A stretch of DNA of 64,000 nt from positions 744,001-808,000 of the forward strand of contig NZ_JAGFNZ010000002.1 in assembly GCF_019448085.1 (NCBI RefSeq). The letters are read 5' to 3'. Under the pieces are notes generated by a model. It saw only the letters and a list, made by a program, of their open reading frames with translations. It was not told the origin of the DNA and did not search any database. This DNA comes from Caproiciproducens faecalis (lineage in GTDB: Bacteria; Bacillota; Clostridia; Oscillospirales; Acutalibacteraceae). Numbering within the stretch: the stretch's first letter is position 1; every line of letters begins with the position of its first letter. Below, piece after piece: positions 47,655 to 54,130 of the stretch. Made by a program: the position numbers and the translations under genes.

Positions 47655-47717
47655 GGGGTGGATTTTCCATCCCGCCATATTTCTTTATTCTGAACTAAAT
47701 AAAAGCACCGCCGTAGG
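47655..47717 (+). repeat. Tandem hairpin unit, copy 1
   Basis: A hairpin GGGGTGGA/TCCATCCC (extended outside to a 10-11-bp stem from 47652) is followed by a 49-base tail beginning ATCCCGCCATAT and ending CGTAGG. The tail is about 80 percent identical to the unit at 47739. The first unit lies just after the prs stop and its hairpin could also stop prs transcription. Confidence 0.75.
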
Positions 47718-47738
47718 CGCGTCCTGACCGGCAGGTCC

Positions 47739-47802
47739 GGGGTAGAGTAGTCTATCCCGCCATATTCCTTTATCATAATCTAAATGAAAGCACTGTCGTA
47801 GG
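47739..47802 (+). repeat. Tandem hairpin unit, copy 2
   Basis: Same arrangement as the unit at 47655, 85 bases on: hairpin GGGGTAGA/TCTATCCC and a tail ending CGTAGG. A G-C pair of copy 1 is replaced by A-T here, keeping the stem. Confidence 0.75.
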
Positions 47803-47836: not shown

Positions 47837-48013
47837 CGTCAATGAAAACCACTAAAGAATCGTATCACATAAAAGTTCTTTGGGGATACCCCGGGGGTGC
47901 AGGGGGATTTTATGGAACCCTCCCGCCGGGAATTAAAAATCCCCCTGCGCGTACTTTGCCTACTTTCGGACAAGACCGAAAGTAGGGGCCCGCCCGGCCT
48001 GAGGGCAGACCAA
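47837..48013 (+). repeat. Structured dispersed repeat, copy A
   Basis: About 177 bases, similar to 53955-54130. Contains a 13-bp stem GCAGGGGGATTTT / AAAATCCCCCTGC (47899-47911 with 47936-47948), a second stem CTACTTTCGG / CCGAAAGTAG (47960-47985) and a small GCCC/GGGC hairpin. Start shares CGTCAATGAAAACC with copy B. No protein product is convincing. A structured RNA or a small non-autonomous element is possible. Confidence 0.85.
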
Positions 48014-48418
48014 AGCCCGGCGGGGAAAAGCCATTAGGGGGACTCTCGCCGCCGGTCTTTCTGCCGCAAGGCACAAAAAAACGCCGTACACGGATTTTGC
48101 ATCCATATACAACGTCATCAAGTGCCCGCGGGTATAAATCGCCTCTGTACAAAAAGAAAAAGAGGCGGTATAATAATATCCGCAGTGCGCCGATTATTCG
48201 GTTGCTTATGGAGTGTGGCTCCGTATGCAGGGGGCGGGGCGGTGGTGCGCCCCGTTCCTGCTCTGCACTTTTTATTGTGCCTTACGAACCGATTATAGCG
48301 CTTTTCTTCTTTTCATGCAATAGAATTTGTAAAATTGCAGAAGATTATGGCAATTTATGGGAAATGCCCGGCTGTCCGGCTGAGGCGTTTGCCGTTTTAT
48401 AGATTGAGGTTACGGAAC
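48014..48418 (+). other. Rest of the prs-pth gap, no gene found
   Basis: 405 bases unique to this copy of the gap. Contains CGCCTCT and AGAGGCG arms (near 48141 and 48160) and a TATAAT-like string at about 48168, but no convincing promoter and no coding frame with a ribosome site. GC-rich at left, AT-rich before pth. Confidence 0.5.
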
Positions 48419-49030
48419 ATGTTTAAAAACATTTTTGCAAGAAGCGCCGAGCCGGTCGGCCCGGTCGAATACATTGTCGCCGGTCTGGGCAACCCCGGCG
48501 GCAAATACGAAGGCACGCGCCACAACGCGGGCTTTATGGCGCTTGACTATATTGCGGAAAAGGCCGGGGCAAAGGTAGACCGCATCCGCTTTAAGGGGCT
48601 GACCGGCACCGCCGTAATCGGCGGAAAAAAGGTGCTTCTGCTCAAACCCTCCACCTATATGAATTTAAGCGGGCAGAGCGTTACGGAGGCCATGTCCTTC
48701 TATAAGCTGCCGCCTGAAAAGGTGATTGTTCTTTTCGACGACATTTCTCTGGAGCCGGGCCACATGCGCATCCGCATGAAGGGCAGCGACGGCGGACAGA
48801 ATGGAATGAAAAATATTATCTACCTAAGCGGGAGCGACCGTTTCCCGCGCATTAAGCTCGGCACGGGAGCCAAACCGAACCCCCAGTGGGATTTGGCGGA
48901 CTGGGTGCTTTCCAAGTTTACCGAAACGGACAAAAAGGCTCTTTACGAGGCAATTGACCACGCCAACTCCTCCGTGGAGCTGATGGTGCAGGACAACGCC
49001 GCCGAGGCGATGAACAAATATAATTCATAA
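48419..49030 (+). CDS. pth: Peptidyl-tRNA hydrolase
   Basis: Frees tRNA from stalled peptidyl-tRNA. 203 residues from ATG 48419 (GAGGT about 9 bases upstream); the longer frame from 48335 has no ribosome site. It has a short extra N-terminus (about 18 residues) before YIVAGLGNPG. Catalytic His in TRHNAGF, Asn in STYMNLSG, and DDISLEPGHMRIR. Downstream of prs, upstream of mfd, as in Bacillus. Confidence 0.95.
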   Translation: MFKNIFARSAEPVGPVEYIVAGLGNPGGKYEGTRHNAGFMALDYIAEKAGAKVDRIRFKGLTGTAVIGGKKVLLLKPSTYMNLSGQSVTEAMSFYKLPPEKVIVLFDDISLEPGHMRIRMKGSDGGQNGMKNIIYLSGSDRFPRIKLGTGAKPNPQWDLADWVLSKFTETDKKALYEAIDHANSSVELMVQDNAAEAMNKYNS

Positions 49031-49112
49031 AGACCGCATATAATAAAATATCAGTAAAAGTAATGGACAATAAGCACGGATTTTTTCGTTCATTCAAATT
49101 AAGGGAGATTCC

Positions 49113-52100
49113 ATGAAATTTCTCACCAATGCAATCAGCGGCCTCAAGGAGTTTCAGGAACTTGAAGCCGCTGTCAAAACCTCTGCGCTGCCGGCGGCAG
49201 TGACCGGGCTTTCCGGGATTCATAAAGCAAATATTATCTACTCGCTCTGCGTAAAAACAAAACGCAGGGCTTTTGTTGTTGCCGGTGATGAAAACGAGGC
49301 GCAGCGCCTGTGTGACGACCTTTCCTCCATGGGCATGAAGCCGCTGTTTTACCCCGTGCGCGACTTCAATTTCCGCGACACGGCGGGAAGCAGCCACGAG
49401 TATGAGCATCAGCGCCTGCAGGTGCTGGAGCAGACGCTCGGCGGCGAGTGCGACGCGGTGGTCTGCTGTATGGACGCGGCTCTGCAGTACACCATCCCCC
49501 CGCAGGAACTGAAAAAGCGCACCGTTACGCTGAAAGCGGGCGATTCCGTTTCCATGGAACAGGTGCTTTCCGCCCTGTCCGCCTGCGGGTACGAACGCGC
49601 CGTTCAGGTGGACGGCACCGGGCAGTTTTCTCAGCGCGGCGGCATTCTGGACATTTTCACGCCCGACGCTCCGAATCCGGCGCGCGTGGAATTCTGGGGC
49701 GACGAAATCGACACCATTTCTCTGTTTGATCTGGAAACTCAGCGCCGCACGGAAACCGCGGAGCAGCTTGTCATTGCCCCCGCGGTGGAAGCCCTGATCG
49801 ACAATCCGGGACTTCTGGCGGAAAAAATCATGAAACACGCGTCCACTCTGCGCGGAAAAACGGCTCCGGCCGCCAAGACCGTTTTGACGGAACAGGCGGA
49901 TAAGCTGGAAAGCGGCGTCCGCATCGGGTGCGCGGATAAATATATCACCATGCTGTACGGTACCACGGCGACCCTGTTTGATTATATGGACCCGGATACT
50001 CTGTTCTTTGTCAGCGAACCGGTCAAATCAAAGGAACGGATGCGCAGTACACTCTGGCAGTGGGGCGAAGACGTGAAAGACCTACTGCTCGAGGGCACTC
50101 TCTGCCGCGGGCTGGACACCTTCAGCGGGGACTGGCCGTACGTTCTGGATCTGTTTGAGCGCCGCGGCGCAATTTATCTGGACACCTTTGTACGCGGCAG
50201 CTACGAAACGCCGGTGCGCACCCTCATCGGGCTGACCGCCCGTCAGCTTTCCGTGTGGGGCGGCAGCACCCAGCTGCTGAGCGAAGACGTGCAGAACATG
50301 CTGGCAACCAAATGGGCCTGTGTGGTGCTTGCCGGAAACGAGCGAAGTGCGCGAACCACCGTCGCCGACCTGCAGGCGGCCGGGCTGCCCGCGGGTTACG
50401 TTGAAAACCCGGAAACCGTTCAGCGCGGTACCGTTGTAGTCACCACCGGAGCGCTTTCCGCCGGACTGGAATACCCCGGCGCGTTCTTCGGTCTGATTAC
50501 GCACGGCCGGTTGATTTCCGCGCCCGCCAAAAAGGCCAAGCGTAACAAAAACAGTCAGGAAATTTACAGTCTTGCGGAGCTGACCCCCGGCGACTATGTG
50601 GTGCATGTGTCCCACGGAATCGGCGTGTTCGAGGGCATCCACAAGCTCGACATGCACGGCATTGTCAAGGATTATATCAAGCTGCGGTACGCTAAAAACG
50701 ACACCCTCTATGTCCCTGTCACCCAATTGGACATGGTTTCCAAATACATCGGCCCGCGTGAGGATGCGACCGTCAAGCTGCACCGTCTGGGCGGCGCGGA
50801 GTGGCAGAAGGCCAAGGCGAGAGTCCGCGCGGCGGTCAAGGATATGGCGAAGGAGCTGATGAAGCTTTACGCCGAACGTATGCAGGCGCAGGGACACGCC
50901 TTTCCGCAGGACAACGAGTGGCAGCGTGATTTTGAAGCGTACTTTGAGTTCGATGAAACGGAAGCGCAGCTCCGCTGTATTGACGAGATAAAGAACGATA
51001 TGGAGCGGGAAGCCCCCATGGATCGGCTTCTGTGCGGGGACGTCGGCTTTGGAAAAACAGAGGTTGCTCTGCGCGCCGCTTTCAAGTGCATTACGGATTC
51101 CAAGCAGTGCGCCATGCTGGTACCCACCACGATTCTGGCGTGGCAGCACTTTCAAACCATCCTCAAGCGTATGGAAGGATTCCCGGTCAGAATAGAGCTG
51201 CTTTCCCGATTCCGCACACCGAAGCAGCAGGAGGAAATTCTGCGGCGCTTAAAGCGCGGCGAAGTGGACATGGTCGTCGGTACGCACCGCCTTGTTTCCA
51301 AGGATGTAAAATTCCGCGATCTGGGACTGGTCGTCATCGACGAGGAACAGCGTTTCGGCGTGGCACAGAAGGAAAAACTGAAAGCGCTGTGCAAAAACGT
51401 GGACGTCCTCACCCTTTCGGCTACGCCGATTCCGCGCACGCTGAACATGGCGCTGTCCGGTATCCGCGACATGAGCCTAATTGAGGAAGCGCCCCACGAC
51501 CGCCATCCCGTACAGACCTATGTGCTGGAACACGACAACGGCCTCATCAATGAGGCAATCCGGCGCGAGCTGCGGCGCGGCGGGCAGGTGTACTACCTGC
51601 ACAACGACGTTGCGACCATTGAGCGTACGGCTGCCCGGCTGCAGGCACAGGTTCCGGAAGCGCGCATCGGCTTCGGTCACGGCAAGATGAACGAGCAGGA
51701 GCTTTCCGAGGTCTGGCGCCGCCTGATCGAGCACGAAATCGATGTGCTTGTCTGTACGACGATTATAGAAACCGGCGTGGACGTGCCCAACGCCAACACG
51801 CTGATCATCGAAAACGCCGACCGGATGGGGCTTTCCCAGCTTCATCAGATTCGCGGCCGCGTGGGGCGCTCCAGCCGCCGCGCGTATGCCTACCTTACCT
51901 TTACGCCGAACAAGGTGCTCACAGAGATCGCACAGAAGCGGCTCTCCGCCATCCGCGAATTTACGGAGTTCGGCTCCGGATTCAAAATCGCCATGCGCGA
52001 CCTTGAAATTCGGGGCGCGGGCAACATTCTGGGCGGCGAGCAGCACGGTCATATGGAAGCCGTCGGCTACGACATGTACCTGCACCTGCTGGCCGAAGCA

Positions 52101-52568
52101 ATCAGCCGTGAAAAGGGCGAAGCTCCGCCGGAGTACGACCAGGAGTGCCTTGTGGATATGCAGATTCAGGCGCATATTCCGGAAAACTACATTGGAAACC
52201 TCAGTCAGAGGCTGGAAATTTACCGCCGCATCGCGGACATCCGTACCCGCGAGGACGCGCTGGACGTAACCGACGAGCTGATCGACCGCTTCGGCGAGCC
52301 GCCGGAAAGCGTAAACGGCCTGATCGAGGTCGCGCTGCTGCGCAATCTTGCCTCCCAGCTTGGCATTTATGAAATCAAGCAGCAGAACGACGTCCTTCTT
52401 CTGTATAAAAACGGTATCGATATGAAGCAGGTCGGTTCGCTGATTTCCGCCATGCGTTCCCGTGTCATGCTGAACGCCGGGGCGAAACCATACATCAGTG
52501 TCAAAATTCTTCCGGGCGCCACTCCGCTGGACACCCTGACCGAAATTCTCAACACGATTCAGCAATAA
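49113..52568 (+). CDS. mfd: Transcription-repair coupling factor Mfd
   Basis: Removes stalled RNA polymerase and recruits UvrA. 1151 residues. UvrB-homology N-terminus (1-330), RNA-polymerase-interacting CarD-like region (about 490-550, LTPGDYVVHVSHGIGVFEG), SF2 translocase with Walker A GDVGFGKTEVA (about 646) and DEEQRFGV, and the C-terminal TRCF domain. GGGAG precedes ATG. Follows pth by 82 bp. Confidence 0.97.
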   Translation: MKFLTNAISGLKEFQELEAAVKTSALPAAVTGLSGIHKANIIYSLCVKTKRRAFVVAGDENEAQRLCDDLSSMGMKPLFYPVRDFNFRDTAGSSHEYEHQRLQVLEQTLGGECDAVVCCMDAALQYTIPPQELKKRTVTLKAGDSVSMEQVLSALSACGYERAVQVDGTGQFSQRGGILDIFTPDAPNPARVEFWGDEIDTISLFDLETQRRTETAEQLVIAPAVEALIDNPGLLAEKIMKHASTLRGKTAPAAKTVLTEQADKLESGVRIGCADKYITMLYGTTATLFDYMDPDTLFFVSEPVKSKERMRSTLWQWGEDVKDLLLEGTLCRGLDTFSGDWPYVLDLFERRGAIYLDTFVRGSYETPVRTLIGLTARQLSVWGGSTQLLSEDVQNMLATKWACVVLAGNERSARTTVADLQAAGLPAGYVENPETVQRGTVVVTTGALSAGLEYPGAFFGLITHGRLISAPAKKAKRNKNSQEIYSLAELTPGDYVVHVSHGIGVFEGIHKLDMHGIVKDYIKLRYAKNDTLYVPVTQLDMVSKYIGPREDATVKLHRLGGAEWQKAKARVRAAVKDMAKELMKLYAERMQAQGHAFPQDNEWQRDFEAYFEFDETEAQLRCIDEIKNDMEREAPMDRLLCGDVGFGKTEVALRAAFKCITDSKQCAMLVPTTILAWQHFQTILKRMEGFPVRIELLSRFRTPKQQEEILRRLKRGEVDMVVGTHRLVSKDVKFRDLGLVVIDEEQRFGVAQKEKLKALCKNVDVLTLSATPIPRTLNMALSGIRDMSLIEEAPHDRHPVQTYVLEHDNGLINEAIRRELRRGGQVYYLHNDVATIERTAARLQAQVPEARIGFGHGKMNEQELSEVWRRLIEHEIDVLVCTTIIETGVDVPNANTLIIENADRMGLSQLHQIRGRVGRSSRRAYAYLTFTPNKVLTEIAQKRLSAIREFTEFGSGFKIAMRDLEIRGAGNILGGEQHGHMEAVGYDMYLHLLAEAISREKGEAPPEYDQECLVDMQIQAHIPENYIGNLSQRLEIYRRIADIRTREDALDVTDELIDRFGEPPESVNGLIEVALLRNLASQLGIYEIKQQNDVLLLYKNGIDMKQVGSLISAMRSRVMLNAGAKPYISVKILPGATPLDTLTEILNTIQQ

Positions 52569-52644
52569 CGTCATACCGCGCAAAAATCGAATGCTTTTCC
52601 ACCGATGTTTCACACAACCTTCACAAAATCCCCACCCGGCGTAC

Positions 52645-52673
52645 TGGACAAGCCGCGGGGATAAGAGTATAAT
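52645..52673 (+). promoter_or_regulatory. Promoter of the foldase lipoprotein gene
   Basis: TGGACA, 17 bases, TATAAT, 65 bases before ATG 52739. Confidence 0.75.
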
Positions 52674-52738
52674 TATCTGGTGAAACTGAATTTTGTATCG
52701 ATTAAAATTTGGCTGCGCATAAGCGCATGGAGGTAGTT

Positions 52739-53863
52739 ATGTTAAAAACAACAAAAAAGGTTGTTGCCGCGGTTCTGGCTGTTGCCATGATGGCGGGGAT
52801 CACCGCATGTAAAAGCGACAAAAGCTGGGCTATGAAAAACGACAGCCTGACTGCTCCTATCGGAGTATATATCTACAATCTGTATAACGCTTACCAAAGC
52901 GCACAGACCATGGTAACCGATACGTCTAAGCCGCTTCTGGAACAGAAGATCGACGGCAAGGACGCGAACACCTATATTAAGGAAAAGGCTCTTGACGCTA
53001 CAAAGTCGCTTTTTGTGATGAACGACAAGATGAAGGAGCTCGGTCTTTCCCTGACTGCGGACGAAACAAAGTCCATCAGCTCCAACACGGACACCCAGTG
53101 GGCGCAGGCAAGCTCCACCCTTGAAAAGTACGGTATTTCAAAGGCCTCTTTCAATCTGGCTTATTCGGATTACTACACCAAATACCAGAAGGTGTTCACG
53201 GCTCTTTACGGCAAGGGCGGCAAAAAGGAAGTTCCCGAAGCTGACCTGAAAGCTTACTTTGAGAAAAACTACACCGATTTTTCTTATTTCCTCAAACCGC
53301 TTTACAGCAGCGACGCCAGCGGCAGCACGGTGATGATTACGAAAGCCGAACAGGCTGCTCTGGAAAAGGAATTCAACAATTACGCGGCGGACATCAAAGC
53401 AGGAAAAATGACGATGCAGCAGGCGGCCGACGCTTTTAAAACTTCTTCCAAACAGACTACGGAACAGCTTCAGTCCGGCACCGAAATTCTGGACAGCGCT
53501 TCCGGTTTTCCGGACGACTTTATCTCCCTGTTGTCTTCCATGAAGGCGGGCGAGGTCAAGGCAGCCGAAATCTCCGGTACCTATCTGGTCGTAATGAAGA
53601 ACGACATCACGAAAAAGACCACTGAGCAGCTGGGCTCTGAAAGCACCCGCAATGCCATTCTGGCTCAGATGAAGGGCAAGGAGTACTCCGACGAGCTTGA
53701 CAAAGAAGCGGCGGCGTACACGAAGATCACCCTGAACCAGCAGGCGATTGATTCCTACAAGCCTTCCATGTTTGAAACCAAGACTTCCTCCGCGGCGGCG
53801 GTATCTTCCGCAGCGGCGGCTTCAGCGGCTTCCACCGCAGAAAGCACCGCTTCTTCCAAATAA
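52739..53863 (+). CDS. PrsA/SurA-like extracytoplasmic foldase lipoprotein
   Basis: 374 residues from ATG 52739 (GGAGG 5 bases upstream). Signal peptide with lipobox AGITAC (lipid-modified Cys near residue 24). A SurA-like chaperone helical region (about 25-190) is followed by a parvulin-like part (about 190-300), where GTEILDSASGFPDDFISLLSSMKAGEV is family-like but the peptidyl-prolyl isomerase core looks weak. Ser/Ala-rich tail at the end. Expected to help exported proteins fold. Strong terminator follows. Confidence 0.8.
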   Translation: MLKTTKKVVAAVLAVAMMAGITACKSDKSWAMKNDSLTAPIGVYIYNLYNAYQSAQTMVTDTSKPLLEQKIDGKDANTYIKEKALDATKSLFVMNDKMKELGLSLTADETKSISSNTDTQWAQASSTLEKYGISKASFNLAYSDYYTKYQKVFTALYGKGGKKEVPEADLKAYFEKNYTDFSYFLKPLYSSDASGSTVMITKAEQAALEKEFNNYAADIKAGKMTMQQAADAFKTSSKQTTEQLQSGTEILDSASGFPDDFISLLSSMKAGEVKAAEISGTYLVVMKNDITKKTTEQLGSESTRNAILAQMKGKEYSDELDKEAAAYTKITLNQQAIDSYKPSMFETKTSSAAAVSSAAAASAASTAESTASSK

Positions 53864-53878
53864 AATTAGCAATAATCA

Positions 53879-53912
53879 GGGCGCAGACAGAAATTTCTGT
53901 CTGCGCCCTTTT
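53879..53912 (+). terminator. Terminator after the foldase gene
   Basis: Perfect 15-bp palindrome GGGCGCAGACAGAAA / TTTCTGTCTGCGCCC with no formal loop, followed by TTTT. Confidence 0.88.
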
Positions 53913-53954
53913 GTTCATTTTTTTATTAAGTAATTCCCATTCTACCGTCTTTAT

Positions 53955-54130
53955 CGTCAATGAAAACCTTTTGGATCGCTTATCGGATGAACCCTTTTGG
54001 GGATACCCAGGGGGTGCAGGGGGATTTTATGGAGCCCTCCCGCCGGGAATTCAAAATCCCCCTGCGCGCACTTTGCCTCCTTTCGGGCAAGACCGAAAGG
54101 AGGGGCCTGCCCGGCCTGAGGGCAAACCAA
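53955..54130 (+). repeat. Structured dispersed repeat, copy B
   Basis: Same strand and layout as copy A at 47837. The 13-bp stem is identical (54016-54028 with 54053-54065). The second stem reads CTCCTTTCGG / CCGAAAGGAG (54077-54102), where one A-T pair of copy A is C-G. It lies after the foldase terminator and before a convergent gene, so it belongs to no operon. Confidence 0.85.

Follow-up and report, generated by a model that had tools for sequence, protein, structure and literature searches.

What kind of sequence is the folded repeat that occurs twice, as copies A and B, in the window analysed here, the 64,000-nt stretch G000:C2:744001-808000 of the Caproiciproducens faecalis genome (G000)? 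A preliminary description placed both copies on the same strand in gene-free gaps, as the sequence and a check of the open reading frames (ORFs) confirm, and took them to be selected structure belonging to a small mobile element, a repetitive extragenic palindromic (REP)-like sequence or a non-coding RNA. Selected structure is now strongly supported by many copies, by compensatory changes in every helix and by two pseudoknots: what is conserved is the fold of a single strand, in which hairpin 1 is followed by two consecutive H-type pseudoknots. Of the identities proposed, an interspersed repeat resembling REPs and miniature inverted-repeat transposable elements (MITEs) fits best by analogy, for an element without terminal inverted repeats, a readable target duplication or a partner in the two enzyme families searched, much larger than a REP and folded differently. 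The element may well be an interspersed repeat, non-coding and non-autonomous, of the bacterial family to which Caproiciproducens belongs; it would be handled as a folded single strand, with either its insertion or its retention concentrated in the origin domain. The preliminary description lacked the other copies in G000, the third hairpin, the pseudoknots and the clustering round dnaA.

Read 5' to 3', the element begins with CGTCAATGAAAACC, correctly recognised before as common to copies A and B; element positions 1-4, 6-10, 12 and 14 are invariant in 31 aligned copies. There follow a variable stretch of ~27 nt, TTTGGGGATACC, hairpin 1, the 4-7 bases of pseudoknot 1, CTTTGC and hairpin 2, whose loop closes pseudoknot 1, and then NGCC and hairpin 3, with a loop, GGCN'TGA, that completes pseudoknot 2. 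The 13-bp stem of hairpin 1 is perfect in both window copies, as first described; the second stem is also present in both, with 11 rather than 10 bp, and its compensatory change from A-T (47962/47983) in copy A to C-G (54079/54100) in copy B had been read correctly. Both copies lie where they had been placed, except that 3' ends at 48013 and 54130 are ~5 bases too far according to the covariance model. The true ends of the element are uncertain, the islands in which it can lie being mosaic. Copies A and B are 87% identical, and the folding energies of 47880-48025 and 53990-54130 correspond to z values of -4.44 and -4.46, with none of 200 shuffles as good in either case.

Covariation between copies carries both pseudoknots. 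The 3' module was parsed in 76 distinct copies (77 minus one false match, L121). The pairs of pseudoknot 1 are fully exchanged between copies (for example GTCC:GGAC, GAAC:GTTC, CCCGTAC:GTACGGG, GGAAGG:CCTTCC). At least four Watson-Crick pairs are present in 49 of 63 distinct combinations, a number that averaged 11.2 and never exceeded 23 over 2000 reshuffles. The N:N' pair of pseudoknot 2 is G:C in 57 copies, T:A in 15 and A:T in one, accounting for 73 of the 76. An alignment of 52 rows, thinned from 75 distinct stretches, is 88.6% paired over the whole structure; 160 cells are changed on both sides, against 51.2 in shuffles, and covariation reaches 0.326, against 0.098 shuffled and 0.032-0.100 slid. 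Paired cells in this alignment amount to 98.9% for hairpin 2, 94.7% for hairpin 3 and 65.5% for pseudoknot 1 alone, while two of five measures are less striking: pairs changed on both sides (14 vs 11.6, a value reached in 3 of 500 shuffles) and further pair types (37 vs 34.4, reached in 88 of 500). The helix of hairpin 1 is 98.9% paired over 31 copies; only two of its pairs vary on both sides (reached in 43 of 500 shuffles), and it has six further types (319 of 500). Five copies from G000, G002 and G010 (L037, L038, L042, L043 and L045) have the tip of hairpin 1 swapped for a common ~85-bp sequence that includes GTCGAGTCCGCCGTAGGCGCATCCCG and looks like a nested module; the two arms remain paired in L037, L042 and L043, and the 3' arm is lost in L038 and L045.

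The preliminary description had proposed searching the genome and its relatives with a covariance model. The model built from the 31 aligned copies (R1) matched eight sites in G000, six near-full and two with a changed or missing middle; these further copies, with the covariation, define a family, and the simple two-copy duplication that had been left open is rejected on the eight matches and the family-wide distribution. R1 matches were found in 8 of 11 genomes of the genus (G007 38, a count that takes in tandem partial units; G010 16; G002 13; G000 8; G008 2; G004 2; G001 1; G003 1), with no match in G005, G006 (97% complete) or G009. Across the wider bacterial family, at least 39 of 300 genomes, in 24 of 135 genera, have matches; nine candidates per genome were scored there under stricter filters, which makes copy numbers and genome count lower bounds. 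In 398 genomes of the phylum, a model of the 3' module (R2) gave strong matches only in G000 and G151 and weak ones in four others. One exact pattern run against a contig collection, a scan that may leave out records close to the window's own genome, returned 37 stretches, all from Caproiciproducens, Caproicibacter, 'Amazonia massiliensis' MS4 or Ruminococcaceae, Oscillospiraceae and Clostridiales. Wider kinship with TTTGG-type hairpins outside the family, found in four genomes at 27-30 bits only, is not claimed. A similar-looking TCTTTGGT..CTTTC hairpin repeat of G037, from another family of the order (L254, L258, L261), scores only ~27 bits.

The element sits in intergenic gaps in either orientation. 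Its neighbours, taken as mechanically called ORFs no shorter than 110 codons, show no preferred strand: of 77 copies with both neighbours, 40 have a 5' ORF that runs in their own direction and 37 one that runs against it, and the 3' ORF gives the same counts. Within G002 the element lies inside mosaic islands of ~370-560 bp, as judged from span differences, and at several sites G000 and/or G004 lack the island in the corresponding gap (one genome per species compared). The copies in the prs-pth and queH-aspS gaps are inverted between G000 and G002, queH and aspS being names that we assign by recognition of the proteins. Head-to-head inverted pairs occur in G301 and G236, and single copies elsewhere. 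In two tandem arrays of G007 with a period of 159 bp (L035 532-1134, 3.8 copies; L036 519-1079, 3.5 copies), the repeated unit is the element's 5' half, and the final unit continues as a full element.

The common view of small intergenic repeats has them distributed along the chromosome. In the complete genome G002, 9 of 10 sites lie no more than 160 kb from dnaA, and 7 of 9 do so in G301, a complete genome of another genus; these are the two complete genomes with many good copies. The 160-kb width was set after seeing G002, with G301 as the independent test, and G301, G269 and others surveyed alongside them were chosen because they had matches. Repeat Z of G002, unrelated to the element, served as a control and does not cluster round dnaA (2 of 40 scored among 57 candidates). 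Z is a 110-bp palindromic repeat family (L142:15205-15314 and elsewhere in G002), scattered with few copies near dnaA; its matches number 62 in G002, 67 in G010 (palindrome halves counted too), 6 in G000 and none in G004. The origin clustering is new to us, and we found no earlier description in the papers searched, a set that mostly excludes subscription journals.

Table 1. Features of the element in the window; pseudoknot positions come from covariation across copies and were placed on the window sequence.
Feature	Position	Strand	Details
Copy A of element	47837..48008	+	prs-pth gap; covariance model match 208.8 bits (C2:791837-792008)
Conserved 5' segment CGTCAATGAAAACC	47837..47850 (copy A), 53955-53968 (copy B)	+	from sequence
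Hairpin 1, copy A	47899..47948	+	arms 47899-47911 and 47936-47948
Pseudoknot 1, copy A	47951..47971	+	47951-47954 with loop 47968-47971; 3 of 4 pairs, one A.G mismatch
Hairpin 2, copy A	47959..47986	+	arms 47959-47969 and 47976-47986
Pseudoknot 2, copy A	47987..47999	+	47987-47990 with loop 47996-47999; covariation G:C/T:A/A:T
Hairpin 3, copy A	47992..48006	+	arms 47992-47995 and 48003-48006, loop GGCCTGA
Copy B of element	53955..54125	+	between PPIase-like ORF (384 aa) and 391-aa ORF; covariance model match 183 bits (C2:797955-798125)
Hairpin 1, copy B	54016..54065	+	arms 54016-54028 and 54053-54065
Pseudoknot 1, copy B	54068..54088	+	54068-54071 with loop 54085-54088; 3 of 4 pairs, A.G mismatch
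Hairpin 2, copy B	54076..54103	+	arms 54076-54086 and 54093-54103
Pseudoknot 2 and hairpin 3, copy B	54104..54123	+	54104-54107 with 54113-54116; 54109-54112 with 54120-54123

Pfam assigns housekeeping functions to neighbours of the copies (GlmU-like nucleotidyl transferase, Prs, Pth and Mfd (TRCF)); the PPIase match of the 384-aa neighbour is weak (24.1 bits, under the cut-off of 27), and the 391-aa ORF downstream of copy B has no Pfam match. Directly before copy A, at 47666-47802, lie two 52-nt copies, 83% identical and 85 nt apart, with GCCGTAGGCGC / GACCGGCAGGTCC stretches that resemble mosaic modules elsewhere.

If the element is an interspersed repeat of the kind proposed, an enzyme acting in trans would recognise the fold on a single strand, either RNA or single-stranded DNA (ssDNA), and the origin domain would be favoured for either the entry or the survival of new copies. 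Several observations weigh against this reading. The 5' end CGTCAATG and the 3' end GAGGGCA are not inverted repeats, and no target-site duplication is readable in sister genomes and empty sites that are too diverged. The Y1 transposase (PF01797) is absent from five copy-bearing genomes (G000, G004, G010, G151 and G242) and present in some others; reverse transcriptase (RVT_1) is absent from G007, the richest genome, and present in 13 of 15 genomes; no partner correlates with the copies among these two families, the only ones searched, with TnpB, IS110 and other enzyme families outside the search. Clustering is not significant in G004 (1 of 2 sites) or for the distant relatives in G269 (1 of 8, calculated with a genome length rounded to 3.4 Mb), and no map position was obtained for 17 of 52 and 29 of 54 loci. 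The island modules M1 and M2 are origin-enriched as well, and the islands may therefore be what carries the bias. Copies with the fork direction number 8 of 13 in G002 and 9 of 17 in G301, and the lack of a clear strand bias counts against simple lagging-strand insertion of ssDNA. Some gaps are occupied in two or three species, as old copies kept in place would also be. Finally, the pseudoknot 2 pair is broken in 3 of 76 copies (L015, L016 and L232) and pseudoknot 1 has a mismatch in both window copies.

A tentative and more specific proposal is an origin-tied structured element, which could be either a retroelement resembling short interspersed nuclear elements, its double-pseudoknot RNA riding on a polar ribonucleoprotein into origin-proximal DNA, or a set of folded sites building an origin macrodomain. 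The main rival to the interspersed-repeat reading, rather doubtful in our judgement, makes the element an organiser of the origin domain, whose folded sites, or RNA from them, condense or mark the region much as matS sites mark the terminus. The dnaA clustering in complete genomes of two genera speaks for it, as do the conserved fold, the indifference to orientation and the reuse of the same gaps across species, and naRNA4 from REP325, with HU, provides a precedent for the E. coli nucleoid as described in PMC6907758. However, the number of matches ranges from 0 to 38 within one genus, the 97% complete G006 has none, and several sister gaps are empty. A parS-type site was also considered and rejected. 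The parS site is a 16-bp TGTTTCACGTGAAACA palindrome; allowing at most two mismatches, only two such sites appear in the G002 stretches examined (3437575 and 3439775), 6 and 9 kb from dnaA and away from the copies, a further point against the organiser.

It is unlikely that the copies are transcribed as a family of trans-acting non-coding RNAs or serve as a 3' untranslated region element. The stable fold is in keeping with RNA, and the pseudoknots, together with the conserved CUUUGC beside the ACUUUC/GAAAGU stem, could form base triples. Yet the near-equal orientation of neighbouring ORFs, effectively random, disfavours a gene-linked RNA element, and none of the 13 terminator-like sites of our scan falls inside copy A or B, which also removes a terminator as a candidate. 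No Rfam family matched any copy at gathering score, three sub-threshold matches lying beside copies and not on them, and a link to rRNA in G301 was rejected because Rfam recognised nothing in the 39.7 kb surrounding the copies. A TPP riboswitch lies close to the single copy of G001 (L016 2447-2558). Protein coding was rejected: the overlapping ORFs are mechanical, the ATG-to-core spacing varies between copies, and there is no Pfam match. Moreover, G.U pairs are very rare: hairpin 2, hairpin 3 and pseudoknot 2 together have 2 among 883 cells (1 of 468, 1 of 208 and 0 of 207, respectively), a scarcity unusual for RNA; the other helices have 14 of 354 (pseudoknot 1) and 8 of 465 (hairpin 1 with tip pairs). 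A.C cells number 2 in hairpin 2, 0 in hairpin 3, 2 in pseudoknot 2, 31 in pseudoknot 1 and 0 in hairpin 1. Resting on few independent events, the rarity of G.U tilts towards DNA as the folded strand, whereas the balance in hairpin 1 (8 G.U against 0 A.C) tilts away from it.

Movement as ssDNA by a Y1 transposase, which would make the element a relic of an IS200/IS605- or REP/RAYT-type element, is improbable. A folded single strand and the G.U scarcity would suit it, and the inverted pairs in G301 and G236 resemble REP dimers. The five copy-bearing genomes lacking a Y1 gene and the unclear fork-strand bias argue against it, as does GTAG at the foot of hairpin 2, which is paired and variable among copies (GTAG, GGAG, GTTG, GTAT); set beside the cleavage-site pairing scheme of IS608, the pseudoknot partner is a hairpin loop, not a cleavage site. 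IS200-type Y1 genes were observed at G269:C1:538155 and 2729888, between neighbouring copies of distant relatives. Phage or plasmid origin received limited tests: copy A gave no blastn match in phage and plasmid collections, and a search of IMG/VR with one exact pattern was likewise negative. Passive spread within the origin region, in which mosaic intergenic DNA is duplicated locally and undergoes gene conversion without transposition, is very improbable: mosaic islands, tandem arrays and the shared bias of M1 and M2 speak for it, but the copies occupy many separate gaps over ~300 kb with neighbouring modules that differ from copy to copy, and loops change while stems stay paired.

A single family with a demanding double-pseudoknot fold spans several genera and, in two complete genomes of different genera, lies mostly near dnaA, which raises the question of whether chromosome position is read by an insertion machine or by selection. 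Targeted insertion would open a route to an origin-directed mobile system of a new type, and function a route to an origin-domain organiser in Clostridia; the retroelement or macrodomain proposal, if true, would mean a new kind of chromosome-region-specific repeat.

Among known systems, REPs of the GTAG and CGTC super-families are single palindromes of 20-40 bp that carry an unpaired GTAG or CGTC tag at one end, and CGTC REPs are said to have no dedicated transposase (PMC3733652). Like REPs and bacterial interspersed mosaic elements (BIMEs), the element is intergenic, multicopy, folded, present on both strands and sometimes in inverted pairs (PMC3733652). It differs in its length (~172 nt), in its 13-bp hairpin with two pseudoknots, in its 1-38 matches per carrying genome of the genus and in its clustering at the origin in two complete genomes. 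With several helices, a CGTC ~60 nt upstream of hairpin 1 and a paired GTAG, it falls outside the REPs, and the absence of PF01797 from five copy-bearing genomes separates it from GTAG-type REPs with RAYT/Y1. BIMEs are mosaics of alternating inverted units; the element has inverted pairs (G301, G236), mosaic islands (G002) and elsewhere singles.

BOX/RUP and RU-1/2/3 are likewise short interspersed intergenic elements that have been compared with MITEs (PMC3049150, PMC2759123), whereas ours lacks a readable target duplication, a parent transposase among the families searched and, with CGTCAATG facing GAGGGCA, the terminal inverted repeats of a MITE. REP325/naRNA4, compared by description only, is a structured repeat suggested to act on the nucleoid, but is one E. 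coli REP locus acting with HU (PMC6907758). Retrotransposition of the Ll.LtrB group II intron (PMC2435150) is alike in distribution only: the element has no Rfam intron match at gathering score and its richest genome, G007, no RVT_1 gene, which sets it apart from group II introns and their derivatives, yet, among the systems that we read of, Ll.LtrB offers the closest route to such a distribution.

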